From Bacteroidota bacterium (GTDB lineage: Bacteria > Bacteroidota > Bacteroidia > Bacteroidales > VadinHA17): DNA of 64,000 nt. The notes beneath the pieces are model-generated. The model ran no database searches. It had not been told where the DNA came from and saw only the letters and a list, made by a program, of their open reading frames with translations. Every line of letters starts with the position of its first letter. Within the stretch, counting starts at the first letter, position 1. The stretch is from NCBI GenBank assembly GCA_022561875.1, contig JADFQJ010000001.1:1-64000 (forward strand), written 5' to 3'. A program made the position numbers and the translations under genes. Shown here piece after piece: positions 37,190-42,784 of this stretch.

Positions 37190-37357
37190 CTAACCAAACG
37201 GCTTATCGTCATCAAACGGTGAATCGAAAGAATCACCACTTCCCTTTTTACCACCACGGGGATCAGGGTTAGGAGGGGTGGTAGTCATCATGAAAAGTGA
37301 GATCGAATTATCCAGATCGATCTTTTTTATTTCAGGCTTTTTGTAAATCTTCTTCAT
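37190..37357 (-). CDS. Candidate modified-peptide (RiPP) precursor, 55 aa
   Basis: A 55-residue ORF read from ATG 37357 (an upstream in-frame ATG at 37372 adds five residues). The N-terminal half looks like a leader: MKKIYKKPEIKKIDLDNSIS, with a Y-x-x-P-x-I-x-x-I motif like the one bound by B1/PqqD-type recognition domains in lasso-peptide leaders. The C-terminal half is low in hydrophobics and rich in P, G, D, S (TTTPPNPDPRGGKKG, then SFDSPFDDDKPFG), with an SPF/KPFG ending. It follows five co-directional genes that include a PqqD-like protein, kinase, peptidase and exporter, and has its own consensus promoter. The peptide's function and modification are unknown; similar small Bacteroidota ORFs are usually left as hypothetical. 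Confidence 0.7.
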   Translation of the reverse strand: MKKIYKKPEIKKIDLDNSISLFMMTTTPPNPDPRGGKKGSGDSFDSPFDDDKPFG

Positions 37358-37385: not shown

Positions 37386-37416
37386 CAAAATTACAATAAT
37401 TTATAAATATACCAAA
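37386..37416 (-). promoter_or_regulatory. Consensus Bacteroidota promoter for the candidate precursor gene
   Basis: On the minus strand TTTG (37416-37413), exactly 19 bp, then TAATTTTG (37393-37386): a full match to the TTTG/TAnnTTTG consensus, 28 nt before ATG 37357. It gives the peptide gene its own transcript, separate from the biosynthetic genes. Confidence 0.7.
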
Positions 37417-37521: not shown

Positions 37522-38697
37522 TTAATTTAGTATTAAGTAAACAAGCTTGCCGAAGCGGTGCGGGTAATACAATAAAGCCCTTAACTTACTGTGTGTATTG
37601 TACCTCTTCTTCATAAAGCGCAGGGTGGGAAAAAGATCGCCTGTAATAAAAATTATCTTACGGTGAAACCCGGTTATCTGCTTTATTGTTTGCCGGTAAT
37701 TTTCTGCCCGGTTATACAGAACCGGATGTCCCTCCGGCTGTGCAAGAAAAGTCCTGAATAAATGAGAGGTATTATCCGGAGTCTTTTCATTAATAAGTAT
37801 CTCCATTGCCGGAGGAATATAAATTCCCCAGTATTGCTTCAAAAGAAAAAGTTTAGCGGATAAAATTTTTTCAAGTCCGGCTGCTTCTGCCTCATTAAAC
37901 AGCGCCGTATCAAGAAGCTCCCCTCCATATTTATCAACCATACAAAAAAGGTCGGTATACAAACGTAATTGCGATTCACCGTTATTCTCATGTTTGTCGA
38001 GATGGTTTACAAGGTAAAGAAAAAACTCACGCACCGGCGGGATAAGCACACTGCTTTTGTTGAATGTTGTTTCAGTACTGTTGGTGAGCATTCTTTCTGT
38101 AAGCAAGTGGTCTGCTCCGGAAAAAAGTTTATGGTGTATCTCAACAGAAATACCTCCTTTGATCAACTCCGGCAGATGCTTGCCATAGTATGGCAGTATA
38201 AGATTATAGAGTGGTGATTTAAGCGGGATTGACTGAAAACCGTTTTTTAATAATATCCTTCTTGCTTCCATGCATTGTTTATGTGGCACAAGAATATCAA
38301 TATCGTTCATCTGCCTTAACCCCATATTGCCGTAAACGGACAGCTCAAGAGCCATTCCTTTAAGCAATACCGATTTTATTTTTTCCTGTTTAAAAAGCTC
38401 TAATACCTGTTCAATATTTTTAAAAAGAAATGTGTTACGCCCGAGACTTTTCATCCTGCTGTTTGCAAGGTGTGCCATTTTATCTTCAGGCAACAGGTCA
38501 CCGGCGCCTGTCTCCTTCAGGTTATGGTATGTTAATGCTACAATGCCGTGTTTGTTAGCCAGATATGCAAACTTGTCAATATCTGTTATCTTCTTCGCGA
38601 GTGTACGGATATTTTTCTTCTGCTTTTCGCTGAAGGAGAGACGGCAGAGAGATATCAGCAATTGCTCTTCAGGTGATATATCGATATGAAGGCTCAT
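37522..38697 (-). CDS. Nucleotidyltransferase-family protein (NTP_transf_5)
   Basis: A 391-residue protein of the NTP_transf_5 (PF14907-like) family. The Pol-beta-type active site is in the first half: LLKGMALELS (K113-G114) and MNDIDILVP with D132 and D134 as metal ligands. The rest is helical and poorly conserved. Members of this family occur beside HprK-like kinases in lasso-peptide and related clusters, where they are thought to modify the peptide or a phospho-product; that role here is inference. Its start overlaps the end of the ABC transporter gene by 4 bp, so it is translationally coupled to the operon. The precursor gene lies 164 bp downstream. Confidence 0.85.
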   Translation of the reverse strand: MSLHIDISPEEQLLISLCRLSFSEKQKKNIRTLAKKITDIDKFAYLANKHGIVALTYHNLKETGAGDLLPEDKMAHLANSRMKSLGRNTFLFKNIEQVLELFKQEKIKSVLLKGMALELSVYGNMGLRQMNDIDILVPHKQCMEARRILLKNGFQSIPLKSPLYNLILPYYGKHLPELIKGGISVEIHHKLFSGADHLLTERMLTNSTETTFNKSSVLIPPVREFFLYLVNHLDKHENNGESQLRLYTDLFCMVDKYGGELLDTALFNEAEAAGLEKILSAKLFLLKQYWGIYIPPAMEILINEKTPDNTSHLFRTFLAQPEGHPVLYNRAENYRQTIKQITGFHRKIIFITGDLFPTLRFMKKRYNTHSKLRALLYYPHRFGKLVYLILN

Positions 38698-40496
38698 AAC
38701 TTGTATCCGCTGCTTTGCATTGTGTACATCTCACTGTAAATACCACCGGTTTTCATCAGCTCATCATGCGTACCTTCCTCAGTTATCATTCCTTTATCGA
38801 GTACCAGTATCCTGTCGGCCAGACTGACATTTGAGAAACGGTGACTGATAAGTATTGAAGTCCTGTTGCGGGTTATTTCTTTGAACCTGCTGAACAGTTC
38901 ATATTCTGTTGCAGCATCGAGGGCGCTTGTCGGTTCGTCGAGTATCAGTACAGGAGCATCCCTGTAGAGGGCACGTGCCATTGCTATCTTCTGCCATTCG
39001 CCCCAGCTAAGTTCACGACTGTCATCAAAAAGTCTGCCGATTACCGTATCATATCCTTTGGGCAGTGCCTCTATCAGTTCGTCTATACCTGTTTGTGATG
39101 CCGACGTTTTTATTCTTTCCTTATTTTGAGGGGTGAAAATATCCCCCATCCTGATATTATCGCCTGCACTGAGGTTATACAGCATGAAATCCTGAAAGAT
39201 AACCGAGAACAGTCTGCGGTAAGAAGCAGGGTCCATGTGTCTGATATCCTTACCATCAAGAGTTATCTTTCCTTCAGCCGGATCGTACAATCTGCATAGC
39301 AGTCTTACCAGTGTGCTTTTACCTGCACCGTTGGCTCCTACCAGCGCTATCGTTTCGCCCTTCCGTATCTCAAGATTAAGGTTTTTGAGTAGCGGTTCAC
39401 CGGCACCCGGATATGAAAAGGAGAGGTTGTTGACATTGATACTCCTGTTGAAGCTACCCGGTTCAATAAAAGGAGGTACAGCAACGATCTGTTCTTTAAG
39501 ATTGAGGAACTCAAAGGTATCGCCAATGAAAAGATTATCTTCATATAAACCTGCCAGCGATGAGAAGACATCTTTAATATAGACCATACCCTGCCTGAAA
39601 GCAACGAGGTACATTGCCATATCGCCTACCGATATTTGTGAGCTGACAGTTTTTTCGGCGATATACCACAGTGCTAATAAGAATGCTGAAGCCTTAAAAA
39701 TACCGGTAATAAGCTCAATGAATGTTCTCTTGCGTATAATATCTATCTCTTCCTCTTTCAGCTTTTTGAAGTTCTTATTAAAAAGATCCTTGAAATAATT
39801 TCCCAGTCCGAACAGGCGTAACTCTCTCGATGGCCTGTCGCCTGTCAGCAGCCATTTGAAGTATGCTGTTTTTCTTGCGGCTGGTGTTTGTTCGCGCTTG
39901 AAGTTATACAGTACTCCGGCATAATGCAGGCGGAGCCATATTCCAGGTATGTTAGCTGCAAGAAGGATTATTACAATTACCCAGTGCAGATAAAAAAGGA
40001 GTCCTGCCATCAGTAAAAGTGATAACAGTCCCCTGGCAATAGAGATTAGGTTGTTAACGATAGTGTTGGGTCTGTATGGTGCTTCGCGTGCCGCTCGAGC
40101 CAGCGAGTCGTAATATTCAGGATTTTCGAAATGCTGAAGATCGAGCTTTATTGATTTGGAATGAAGCAGGTTATGCATGTGCGCCTCAAGGTGGTAGGAT
40201 TGTTTGTTACGCACCAGGTTGCCCAGACTCGTTGCCGCCTCATCAAAGAATATTATTATTACAATAGCAAGGATATACCATATTACCAGGTTAAAATTCG
40301 TATCCCCTACCTGTCCGGTTGCCCCGGTTATACCGTCAACAAGCTGCTTGATGAGATATACCAGCACCAGAGGGAAGATACTTCGCAAGACAGAGATGAA
40401 GATGTTTGCTGTAGCCCAGCCGGGAGCACTTTCCCAGACGAGGTTGATTGCTTTCCGGAAGAATGATTTCTTAATACTATAGAATAGGTTACTCAC
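38694..40496 (-). CDS. ABC exporter (fused TMD-NBD)
   Basis: A 600-residue half-transporter with about six membrane helices (residues 15-320) and a C-terminal ATPase. Walker A is GANGAGKSTLVRLL (near 385), Walker B is VLILDEPTSALD (near 515), and the H-loop is ILISHRFS (near 548). The signature reads LSWGEWQ (near 495) in place of LSGGQ; the W codon TGG is clear in the sequence. There is no N-terminal C39 peptidase domain, so leader removal must be done by another protein, most simply the S26 peptidase encoded just upstream. Position and family suggest export of the mature peptide. Neighbours on both sides are spaced or overlapped by under 20 bp. Confidence 0.9.
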   Translation of the reverse strand: MSNLFYSIKKSFFRKAINLVWESAPGWATANIFISVLRSIFPLVLVYLIKQLVDGITGATGQVGDTNFNLVIWYILAIVIIIFFDEAATSLGNLVRNKQSYHLEAHMHNLLHSKSIKLDLQHFENPEYYDSLARAAREAPYRPNTIVNNLISIARGLLSLLLMAGLLFYLHWVIVIILLAANIPGIWLRLHYAGVLYNFKREQTPAARKTAYFKWLLTGDRPSRELRLFGLGNYFKDLFNKNFKKLKEEEIDIIRKRTFIELITGIFKASAFLLALWYIAEKTVSSQISVGDMAMYLVAFRQGMVYIKDVFSSLAGLYEDNLFIGDTFEFLNLKEQIVAVPPFIEPGSFNRSINVNNLSFSYPGAGEPLLKNLNLEIRKGETIALVGANGAGKSTLVRLLCRLYDPAEGKITLDGKDIRHMDPASYRRLFSVIFQDFMLYNLSAGDNIRMGDIFTPQNKERIKTSASQTGIDELIEALPKGYDTVIGRLFDDSRELSWGEWQKIAMARALYRDAPVLILDEPTSALDAATEYELFSRFKEITRNRTSILISHRFSNVSLADRILVLDKGMITEEGTHDELMKTGGIYSEMYTMQSSGYKL

Positions 40497-40515: not shown

Positions 40516-40974
40516 TCACAAATTAAAACGAATTATGCGAATGAGTTTGTCAAACATATGGATTGATTTGATCATGAGGCGGTTACGACGGTAATGTATT
40601 TTATTGCTGTGTGGTTTGATTTTACCTCGTTTTGTTTCAATGGCAGTGACCACACCGGATATTTTATCTGCTGTAACTGGTTTATCTTCATTCACACTAC
40701 TGTCGCCTCGCGTGATAAAGAAAATTTTTTTTTCATGATACCGGATATCTGTCAGCCTGTGTAATACAAAACCGGAATCTCTCCTGAAAACTATTATATC
40801 ACCCGGAATGAGGTTTGACTGATTATTGACAGGAGCGATAATAACAATGTCACCGGGACGTATTGCAGGGAACATACTGTAACCACCCGCTTTGATACGC
40901 AACGATTTACCCTCTGAAAGAAGACTGATACTTACCTCTTTTAAGAAAGAATGATCTGACTTGTTATTTTTCAT
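40516..40974 (-). CDS. S26-family peptidase (Sec11/SipW-like Ser-His type)
   Basis: A 152-residue protein with the type I signal peptidase core. GYSMFPAIRPGDIV holds the nucleophile S33; the second motif is FVLHRLTDI, with H72 where bacterial leader peptidase would have Lys, so it belongs to the Ser/His branch (Sec11, SipW). An Asp-containing TRGDSSVNEDKP block (D91/D97) completes the site. It lacks a clear N-terminal membrane anchor, unusual for a signal peptidase; the C-terminus is basic. Given the exporter without protease domain, it may cleave the leader of the candidate peptide. Its start overlaps the kinase gene by 11 bp. Confidence 0.82.
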   Translation of the reverse strand: MKNNKSDHSFLKEVSISLLSEGKSLRIKAGGYSMFPAIRPGDIVIIAPVNNQSNLIPGDIIVFRRDSGFVLHRLTDIRYHEKKIFFITRGDSSVNEDKPVTADKISGVVTAIETKRGKIKPHSNKIHYRRNRLMIKSIHMFDKLIRIIRFNL

Positions 40975-41854
40975 TTTTCAGGATATATGATATTACACTC
41001 TTATCCGGTCTGAAGAAGAGGCGGCGGACATCTGTTTCAGATGTTAGTTTAACAAGCGCTGCAGTCAGCGATTCAATTATTGAAGGGTCCCAAAGATGCT
41101 GAATACAGTTAGCCATAAGCAGTGAAAGAGCTTCACTGTTTCCTGTCGGGACGATAGTGTTTACAGTGCCATGATCGATGAGAAAGATCTTGTCAACAGG
41201 CGCTGACCGCGGTGTTTCATTATTGTATACAGGTGTGTTATACATAACAAAACGATTGTTTATATTTCTGATAATAAGTCTGTCGTCGTGTATCACCCTG
41301 GCGCCTGCCTCATTCCACAACCGTGCAATAGTAGTTTTGCCTTTCCCCGAGACACCGGCAAAAAGGTATCCCCTGTTGTTTATGTTGACTCCTGAACCAT
41401 GAATAAAAATATCACCCGACCTGACAGTGAGATAATAAAGCAGCAGACCGTCAAGAGGATACTCCAGCGGATCTCTTTTTTTTTCCACACCACTGATATA
41501 AAGGTCCCACACATCTGCCCCGGTATTTATTCGCATACAGGCTTTCCTGTTTTTTTTCCCCAACGGCAGGATAGTTTCAATTAATATATCGTCATTGTTT
41601 TTATAAACAGTCCAGAACTCATCATTAATTTTTATCTTTATATTATCAGTCTCTTTAATATACGGGGCATGAAACACCCTTACGGCTTTTTTTTCAGGTG
41701 TGAGTATACCTGAATGTACACGGATTGTAATATCAACATTCCTGTTGTCTGAAAAAAAGTTGTTATATCGTTTTGTAGTGAAAAGCTCTGTTTCAGGTTC
41801 GGCAGATACAAACCGGGTAATATAATCTGCAATATTCAGGCTAAAGCTTCTCAT
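40964..41854 (-). CDS. HprK-like serine kinase
   Basis: A 296-residue protein. The N-terminal 140 residues are a beta-rich domain; the C-terminal half matches the HPr kinase/phosphatase fold: DIFIHGSGV (H152), a P-loop GVSGKGKTT at residues 167-175, and VIHDDRLII with D190/D191 as the metal and catalytic acids. There is no HprK-type N-terminal domain and no PTS gene nearby, so it is not the classical carbon-catabolite kinase. Kinases of this kind in lasso clusters (the paeninodin type) phosphorylate a Ser of the precursor; the candidate precursor here has Ser residues near its C-terminus. Overlaps the PqqD-like gene by 4 bp. Confidence 0.82.
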   Translation of the reverse strand: MRSFSLNIADYITRFVSAEPETELFTTKRYNNFFSDNRNVDITIRVHSGILTPEKKAVRVFHAPYIKETDNIKIKINDEFWTVYKNNDDILIETILPLGKKNRKACMRINTGADVWDLYISGVEKKRDPLEYPLDGLLLYYLTVRSGDIFIHGSGVNINNRGYLFAGVSGKGKTTIARLWNEAGARVIHDDRLIIRNINNRFVMYNTPVYNNETPRSAPVDKIFLIDHGTVNTIVPTGNSEALSLLMANCIQHLWDPSIIESLTAALVKLTSETDVRRLFFRPDKSVISYILKNEK

Positions 41855-42138
41855 CCATTGATAATAAGGAATTGTTTCATCTCACTGATAAAGGAGAGAA
41901 GATCACTCTTTGCTGTTTCAGCGTCTACTTCAAACTCACTCTGCATACAACGGATTATGCTTGCAAGGTCTGATTTACCATCCAGTCTTTCCCATATAAA
42001 CGCACCTGTTTCGTTCAGTGTATAGACACTATCCATGTCTGCTATGTTATTACTGACAGGCACCAGGACATATTCATCCCCTGTTTTTCTCGGAACAATA
42101 TCCGGAGACGGTATAACAACAGAGTTAAGATCAATCAT
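41851..42138 (-). CDS. PqqD-like RiPP recognition element protein
   Basis: A 95-residue stand-alone PqqD-family protein: a beta-hairpin N-terminus (DEYVLVPVSNNIADMDSVYT), then the family hallmark LNETGAFIWERLDGKSDLAS and a three-helix end (YF-type residues replaced by F and M). PqqD-like domains bind the leaders of ribosomal peptides and pass them to modifying enzymes. It is the first gene of the operon, behind a TACCTTTG -7 element. Some PqqD-fold proteins work in exopolysaccharide or exosortase gene sets, so a peptide role is inferred from the neighbours. Confidence 0.87.
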   Translation of the reverse strand: MIDLNSVVIPSPDIVPRKTGDEYVLVPVSNNIADMDSVYTLNETGAFIWERLDGKSDLASIIRCMQSEFEVDAETAKSDLLSFISEMKQFLIING

Positions 42139-42536: not shown

Positions 42537-42544
42537 TATCTTTG
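42537..42544 (+). promoter_or_regulatory. Possible -7 promoter element (TATCTTTG) for the NqrM-like gene
   Basis: TATCTTTG matches TAnnTTTG, 25 nt before ATG 42569. No clear -33 element was seen. Confidence 0.4.
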
Positions 42545-42568
42545 CTGCATCCAAAAGAGGTATTAATA

Positions 42569-42784
42569 ATGTTTATTAAGTTGTTTTTAATAACAGGTGT
42601 AATTATAGGGATCTCATTTCTTGCTCTGGGATTTTCCATTTTCATTAAAAAAGACGGTAAATTTCCATCTTATGAGATCGGAAAAAACAAAGAGATGAGA
42701 AAACTTGGGATCACCTGTGCGAAACATGATGAACTTAAATGTCATCGTCAGCCCAGGAAGGGGAACCCTTGCGATTGCAGCTAA
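42569..42784 (+). CDS. Small Cys-rich single-pass membrane protein, possibly NqrM-like
   Basis: A 71-residue protein from ATG 42569 (the frame is open nine codons more, but MFIKLFLITGVIIGISFLAL is a natural membrane N-terminus). One membrane helix (2-22), then a short soluble tail with four cysteines: ITCAKHDELKCHRQ and a final NPCDCS. The topology and C-terminal cysteines recall NqrM (DUF539), which delivers iron to the NQR complex, and it sits head-on to the apbE-nqrF-A gene set. The sequence match to NqrM is loose, so the assignment rests on context. It converges on apbE with 8 bp between stops. Confidence 0.6.
   Translation: MFIKLFLITGVIIGISFLALGFSIFIKKDGKFPSYEIGKNKEMRKLGITCAKHDELKCHRQPRKGNPCDCS

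Follow-up and report, generated by a model that had tools for sequence, protein, structure and literature searches.

A conserved short peptide gene at the end of an RRE, HprK-like kinase and S26 peptidase operon in Bacteroidota, predicted to encode an LPP-like RiPP precursor

The window, by which is meant the whole 64,000-nucleotide stretch of Bacteroidota DNA that was analysed, carries on its minus strand a tight run of genes in the order PqqD, HprK-like kinase, S26 peptidase, ABC exporter, NTP_transf_5 and, as the last gene, a short peptide. Three of the junctions between the enzyme genes overlap, the S26 and ABC genes lie about 20 bases apart, and a gap of 164 bases separates NTP_transf_5 from the peptide. 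The peptide gene (37190..37357, minus strand) is an ORF of 55 codons that runs from 37357 down to 37193, with its stop codon at 37192-37190, and its 55-aa product is MKKIYKKPEIKKIDLDNSISLFMMTTTPPNPDPRGGKKGSGDSFDSPFDDDKPFG. This is the ORF that an earlier note, made from the DNA letters, had put forward, and its coordinates and strand were confirmed, as were the YKKPEIKKI motif and the SPFDDDKPFG C-terminus described there. Since the five same-genus relatives have no ATG at the position of a further in-frame ATG of the window (37372), 37357 was taken as the start of the gene.

Several elements can be placed within and just ahead of this gene, all on the minus strand. Residues 5-10, YKKPEI (37328..37345), form a predicted RRE-binding motif of the YxxPxI type, as found in the leaders of lasso peptides and of linear polyphosphorylated peptide (LPP) RiPPs. 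Ser20 (37298..37300), fifteen residues past the motif Tyr (Tyr+15), is the predicted P1 residue of leader cleavage at S20|L21, and Thr25 (37283..37285; Tyr+20) is the predicted phospho-acceptor. The conserved C-terminus SPFDDDKPFG occupies 37193..37222, and SPFxDKPFG is kept through the family. Upstream, a candidate Bacteroidota-type promoter, TTTG-N19-TAATTTTG, lies at 37386..37416; five of the six genus copies have it, as do 8 further copies of the family. It is this conservation that serves as the promoter evidence, since the pattern is only mildly enriched in the window itself (6 matches against 2.7 expected). No consensus intrinsic terminator was seen directly 3' of the peptide gene.

By itself, a YxxP motif is weak evidence for a gene. 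The DNA pattern ATGAAR..TAY..CCN matched the genome 128 times, against 87 times for a reversed control, and a genome-wide pattern search for ATG..YxxP ORFs was dropped as too noisy. It is conservation that carries the case. The same-genus copies are 87-94% identical, and their indels are all in-frame. Across six such copies dN/dS is 0.22 (95% bootstrap interval 0.10-0.43), and by region it is 0.14 in the leader, 0.51 in the middle and 0.017 over the last 11 codons. The earlier note had named a lack of conservation in relatives and a dN/dS near 1 as findings that would speak against the peptide; both were checked, and what was found instead was a low ratio with 0 of 2000 bootstrap replicates at or above 1, indels in multiples of three, and widespread homologues. 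Comparative sequence analysis thus confirms that the peptide gene is real and under purifying selection.

The operon begins with a discrete RRE of the PqqD/B1 family (LppB-like; 41851..42138, minus strand; PF05402, E=6.6e-19). Its best sequence matches in the PDB were PbaB1 (9x90), TfuB1 (6jx3) and LppB (9x8z), with PbaB1 slightly above LppB, and its AlphaFold2 model (pLDDT 89) most resembled leader-bound TbiB1 and TfuB1. The LppB residues that hold Tyr and Pro (D70, N33 and F74) have D79, N42 and F83 as their counterparts in the window protein, each at least 90% conserved in 23 homologues, and this match supports the prediction, already made in the earlier note, of a leader with an RRE-binding YxxPxI motif.

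The remaining enzymes follow on the same strand. The HprK-like kinase (LppK-like; 40964..41854) matches PF07475 below the cut-off (E=1.4e-4), and its H152, P-loop (residues 167-175) and D190/D191 constitute the motif known from BsfK (PMC10368454), which is invariant in 12 homologues. Next comes an S26 peptidase of the SipW/archaeal type (LppS-like; 40516..40974), which scores above the cut-off for TIGR02228 (60.3 bits) and has S33, H72 and D91 at the triad positions; the catalytic residues of LppS are S29, H68 and D93 (PMC13381572). A strict regular expression for the aspartate missed RGD and KGD variants among the homologues, which were seen by eye. Sequence searches of the PDB gave no match for the kinase and a single marginal, unrelated one for the S26 protein. 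The MsbA-like ABC exporter (LppD-like; 38694..40496) starts with GTG and matches PF00005 and PF00664; its best NCBIfam model is MsbA, under the cut-off, and Pfam and NCBIfam models revealed no peptidase domain in it. The NTP_transf_5 nucleotidyltransferase (LppN-like; 37522..38697) is identified by PF14907 (E=1.7e-47). In relatives, HprK and S26 genes are fused (L038:5921-7288, L066:7538-8728 and L070:8228-9598), as are S26 and ABC genes (L248-L251), and these fusions support a shared pathway.

The opposite strand carries polysaccharide export genes (Wza-like and Wzc-like) at a distance of a few kilobases. Also nearby, and divergent from the operon, is a gene for an 80-aa membrane protein with a Cys-rich tail and no Pfam match (42542-42784, plus strand). 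The window's genome encodes a second PqqD-family protein outside the operon (G000:C39:44704-44889; L002).

A search profile built from four genus peptides found homologues (E<=0.1; most <1e-9) in 42 of the 117 genomes of the window's taxonomic family, and the peptide is also present in 33/393 genomes at the level of the order and 13/395 at that of the class. The homologues reach into many other families and into other orders of the class, which bears out the earlier note's expectation of a broad family of peptides starting KK-x-Y-xx-P. Counted from the Tyr, the 59 distinct members share P+3, D+11 and S/T+20 without exception, and the Tyr itself is found in 58, I+14 in 52, L+16 in 50 and M+18 in 55; the expression used to collect them constrained positions +0, +3, +5, +8, +10 and +11 and, loosely, +14, leaving +20 free. 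Position Tyr+15 is Ser in 53 of the 59 and otherwise a small residue (A, T, N or C), and the region after +20 is rich in Pro. The resulting rule, Y-xx-P-x-[IV]-x5-D-xx-I-S-L-x-M-x-[ST], makes it possible to find precursors that lie far from their enzymes.

Some members depart from the usual layout. Four mini-precursors of 26-28 codons stand in tandem directly upstream of PqqD in a genome from another order (L308:8323-8783, G686:C5, minus strand). They read MKKKYEKPEVIKVDLDSEIS-[IT]LM-[ALG]-[ST] plus 0-2 residues, so that each ends at, or at most two residues past, the Ser/Thr at Tyr+20. The precursors of another genus (g12; L139, L141, L144, L145, L146 and L149) lack an ATG ahead of the leader, and their conserved 'LKTI' block points to TTG as the start codon. 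Desulfonema and another proteobacterial MAG also have small ORFs near PqqD whose leader contains YEKP, at L130:1711 (plus strand), with S26 and HprK nearby, and at L131:9750 (plus strand), with S26 nearby. Their cores bear Cys (..LAVGCK..CYGxGS), with a Cys at Tyr+20 in place of the Ser/Thr of the Bacteroidota peptides, and they are possibly another branch of the same logic.

In other genera of the window's family, the PqqD, HprK, S26, ABC and NT genes are conserved, usually in the same operon; no precursor was found beside them, and the profile search placed the peptide elsewhere in the genome. Beside two such dispersed precursors, short NTP_transferase-like and S26-like ORFs occur about 3-5 kb (L165) and about 0.6 kb (L167) away, and these are perhaps second copies dedicated to them. 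In many genomes of the order, from several families, the genes run PqqD, peptide, HprK, S26, ABC, and the gene set in other families and orders is similar, if not always complete within the stretches examined. Across the order, peptide and kinase occurred together in 27 genomes, the peptide alone in 6, the kinase alone in 11 and neither in 349 (Fisher p = 3e-27); the corresponding class counts were 9/4/5/377 (p = 2e-12). As the genomes are related, these p-values overstate independence, and the order counts collapsed to taxonomic families (16/2/6/89, p = 9e-13) are the more careful figure. Some of the six peptide-only genomes are incomplete assemblies, the 11 kinase-only cases are mostly weak kinase matches, and absences are soft throughout, most genomes in the survey being unnamed or metagenome-assembled.

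Together, the conservation of the gene and its residues, the operon, the co-occurrence, the synteny and the RRE fold make it quite likely that the gene encodes an LPP-like RiPP precursor that is modified, trimmed of its leader and exported by the products of the neighbouring operon; all the chemical steps, the site of cleavage and the acceptor are predictions built on these observations. The PqqD-type RRE would bind the leader at YKKPEI and present the peptide, upon which the HprK-like kinase could phosphorylate a Ser or Thr just past the leader, with Thr25 as the most likely target. Leader removal would fall to the S26 peptidase together with the RRE, Ser20 being the likeliest residue before the cut; the MsbA-like ABC protein would export the linear core, and NTP_transf_5 may add a further group. 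Ser20 and Thr25 are singled out because Tyr+15 corresponds to the T-1 position of LppA and the Ser/Thr at +20 is invariant; with a cut at S20|L21, Thr25 would be core position 5. The earlier note had looked for kinase targets in the Ser-rich acidic tail, and although a target of an HprK-type kinase is plausible, the invariant Thr25 is the likelier one.

A different kind of evidence comes from the genes that precede the peptide. The surroundings of 79 peptides were inspected, and 61 of these peptides are preceded on the same strand by a non-operon ORF of at least 100 codons that ends within 480 bases of the Tyr codon. The type IX secretion system (T9SS) type-A sorting domain TIGR04183 occurs in 56 of these 61 neighbours and in 7 of 61 control ORFs (p = 1e-20), the controls being ORFs of the same neighbourhoods, where T9SS genes are in any case plentiful. 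Many pairings within the family come from one ancestral pair, but at order and class level the cargo proteins differ from case to case. An exception is the window's own genus, in which the peptide lies behind NTP_transf_5 with no adjoining cargo gene; because a search of this genus for the family's cargo protein of about 900 aa gave no match, no such pairing is proposed for the window. The window's genome has 25 T9SS type-A cargo matches.

The pairing suggests a cell-surface role for the peptide. It could also be taken, along with the position of most copies in the window's family far from the operon, to mean that the peptide serves T9SS cargo as a small helper, such as a secretion or assembly factor, and that the RRE-kinase operon acts on something else. 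This is very unlikely in view of the co-occurrence with the kinase, the peptide's place inside the operon in many families, the RRE-type YxxP motif, the mini-precursors beside PqqD and the window's own genus, where no cargo gene adjoins the peptide. If the peptide is instead a RiPP precursor, as preferred here, its mature form might conceivably work with the partner cargo: one operon would make a family of modified peptides, the gene of each lying behind that of the surface protein it serves, for example as an acceptor or tether for a PorU-type sortase that joins cargo after removal of the C-terminal domain. The sortase acceptor of Porphyromonas gingivalis is a seryl-bearing sugar of A-LPS (PMC13086638). 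Such a partnership is speculative and unlikely. No link between a peptide-maturation system and type IX secretion cargo was found in the literature searched, and the cargo connection makes the function of these predicted phosphopeptides testable.

Alternatively, the product of the same biosynthesis could be released to the medium, as a bacteriocin or a signal, and not be a partner of surface proteins. Antimicrobials and signals are common among RiPPs that have ABC exporters, and genomes outside the window's family carry several precursor copies with variable C-termini. Against this, the strong conservation of the core in the family, to which the C-terminal dN/dS of 0.017 attests, is unlike what a fast-evolving bacteriocin would show; no immunity gene was noticed, and the T9SS cargo pairing points to the cell surface. 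A released product is thus possible, if somewhat unlikely.

The earlier note had called the recognition motif of the peptide lasso-like. A YxxPxI leader, PqqD/B1 relatives and an HprK kinase are all shared with paeninodin-type and Bsf lasso systems, so that a lasso precursor with its B2 peptidase and cyclase elsewhere in the genome might be envisaged. However, Transglut_core3 (the B2 family, PF13471) was absent from the window's genome and from 27 of the 32 genomes searched, and the five matches lay on other contigs; an S26 peptidase stands in place of B2. The six operon proteins contain no asparagine-synthetase-like macrolactam cyclase domain, related loci having been read by eye from ORF lists. 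The core shows no Gly1 with Asp/Glu at 7-9, and the mini-precursors would leave 5-7 residues past the predicted cut, which is not enough to form a lasso. The identity as a lasso peptide was rejected, B2 and cyclase being no part of the system, and a lasso product is extremely improbable.

Among known systems, the phosphorylated lasso peptides (paeninodin type; Bsf, PMC10368454) share a YxxPxL leader, a B1/RRE, an HprK-like kinase acting near the core N-terminus and, in some clusters, a nucleotidyltransferase, and differ in having a B2 cysteine peptidase and a macrolactam cyclase where the Bacteroidota system has S26, and in the ring pattern of the core. The recognition Thr-2 of lasso leaders falls at the position equal to Tyr+15 (PMC10368454). 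The closer relatives are the LPPs, described in 2026 from the lpp cluster of Paenibacillus alginolyticus, whose precursor was shown to be phosphorylated by an HprK-like kinase and cut by an S26 peptidase with an RRE; the authors called LPPs restricted to Bacillota, and the LPP NTP transferase was inactive in their expression system (PMC13381572). The window has the whole LPP core gene set, namely an S26 peptidase of the SpI type (SipW/archaeal in both), a discrete RRE, an HprK-like kinase, an NTP transferase, an MsbA-like transporter and a short precursor, and a lasso cyclase occurs in neither system; surface-polysaccharide genes are often near in both.

The leaders agree in part. The LPP motif YxxPxVLxHQxIxFETxxS is represented here by YxxPx[IV] and by the small or hydroxyl residue at Tyr+15, where LppA has T-1, whereas HQ, F-3, E-2 and S3 are missing, F-3 and E-2 adjoining the LPP cut. 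The Bacteroidota leader continues instead as D-xx-I-S-L-x-M-x-[ST], and the predicted acceptor lies at Tyr+20 and core position 5, in contrast to S3 at Tyr+18 in LPP and to core position 3 in both LPP and Bsf. The system, known here from its genes, is therefore best filed as LPP-like, with the gene set present and the full leader motif not. It would extend LPP-type RiPPs to a second phylum, Bacteroidota, in several orders and many families. Apart from the phylum, what is new relative to LPP is the dispersal of precursors away from the operon, the tandem mini-precursors and the near-universal pairing with T9SS type-A cargo, along with the HprK-S26 and S26-ABC fusions that also set the Bacteroidota system apart.
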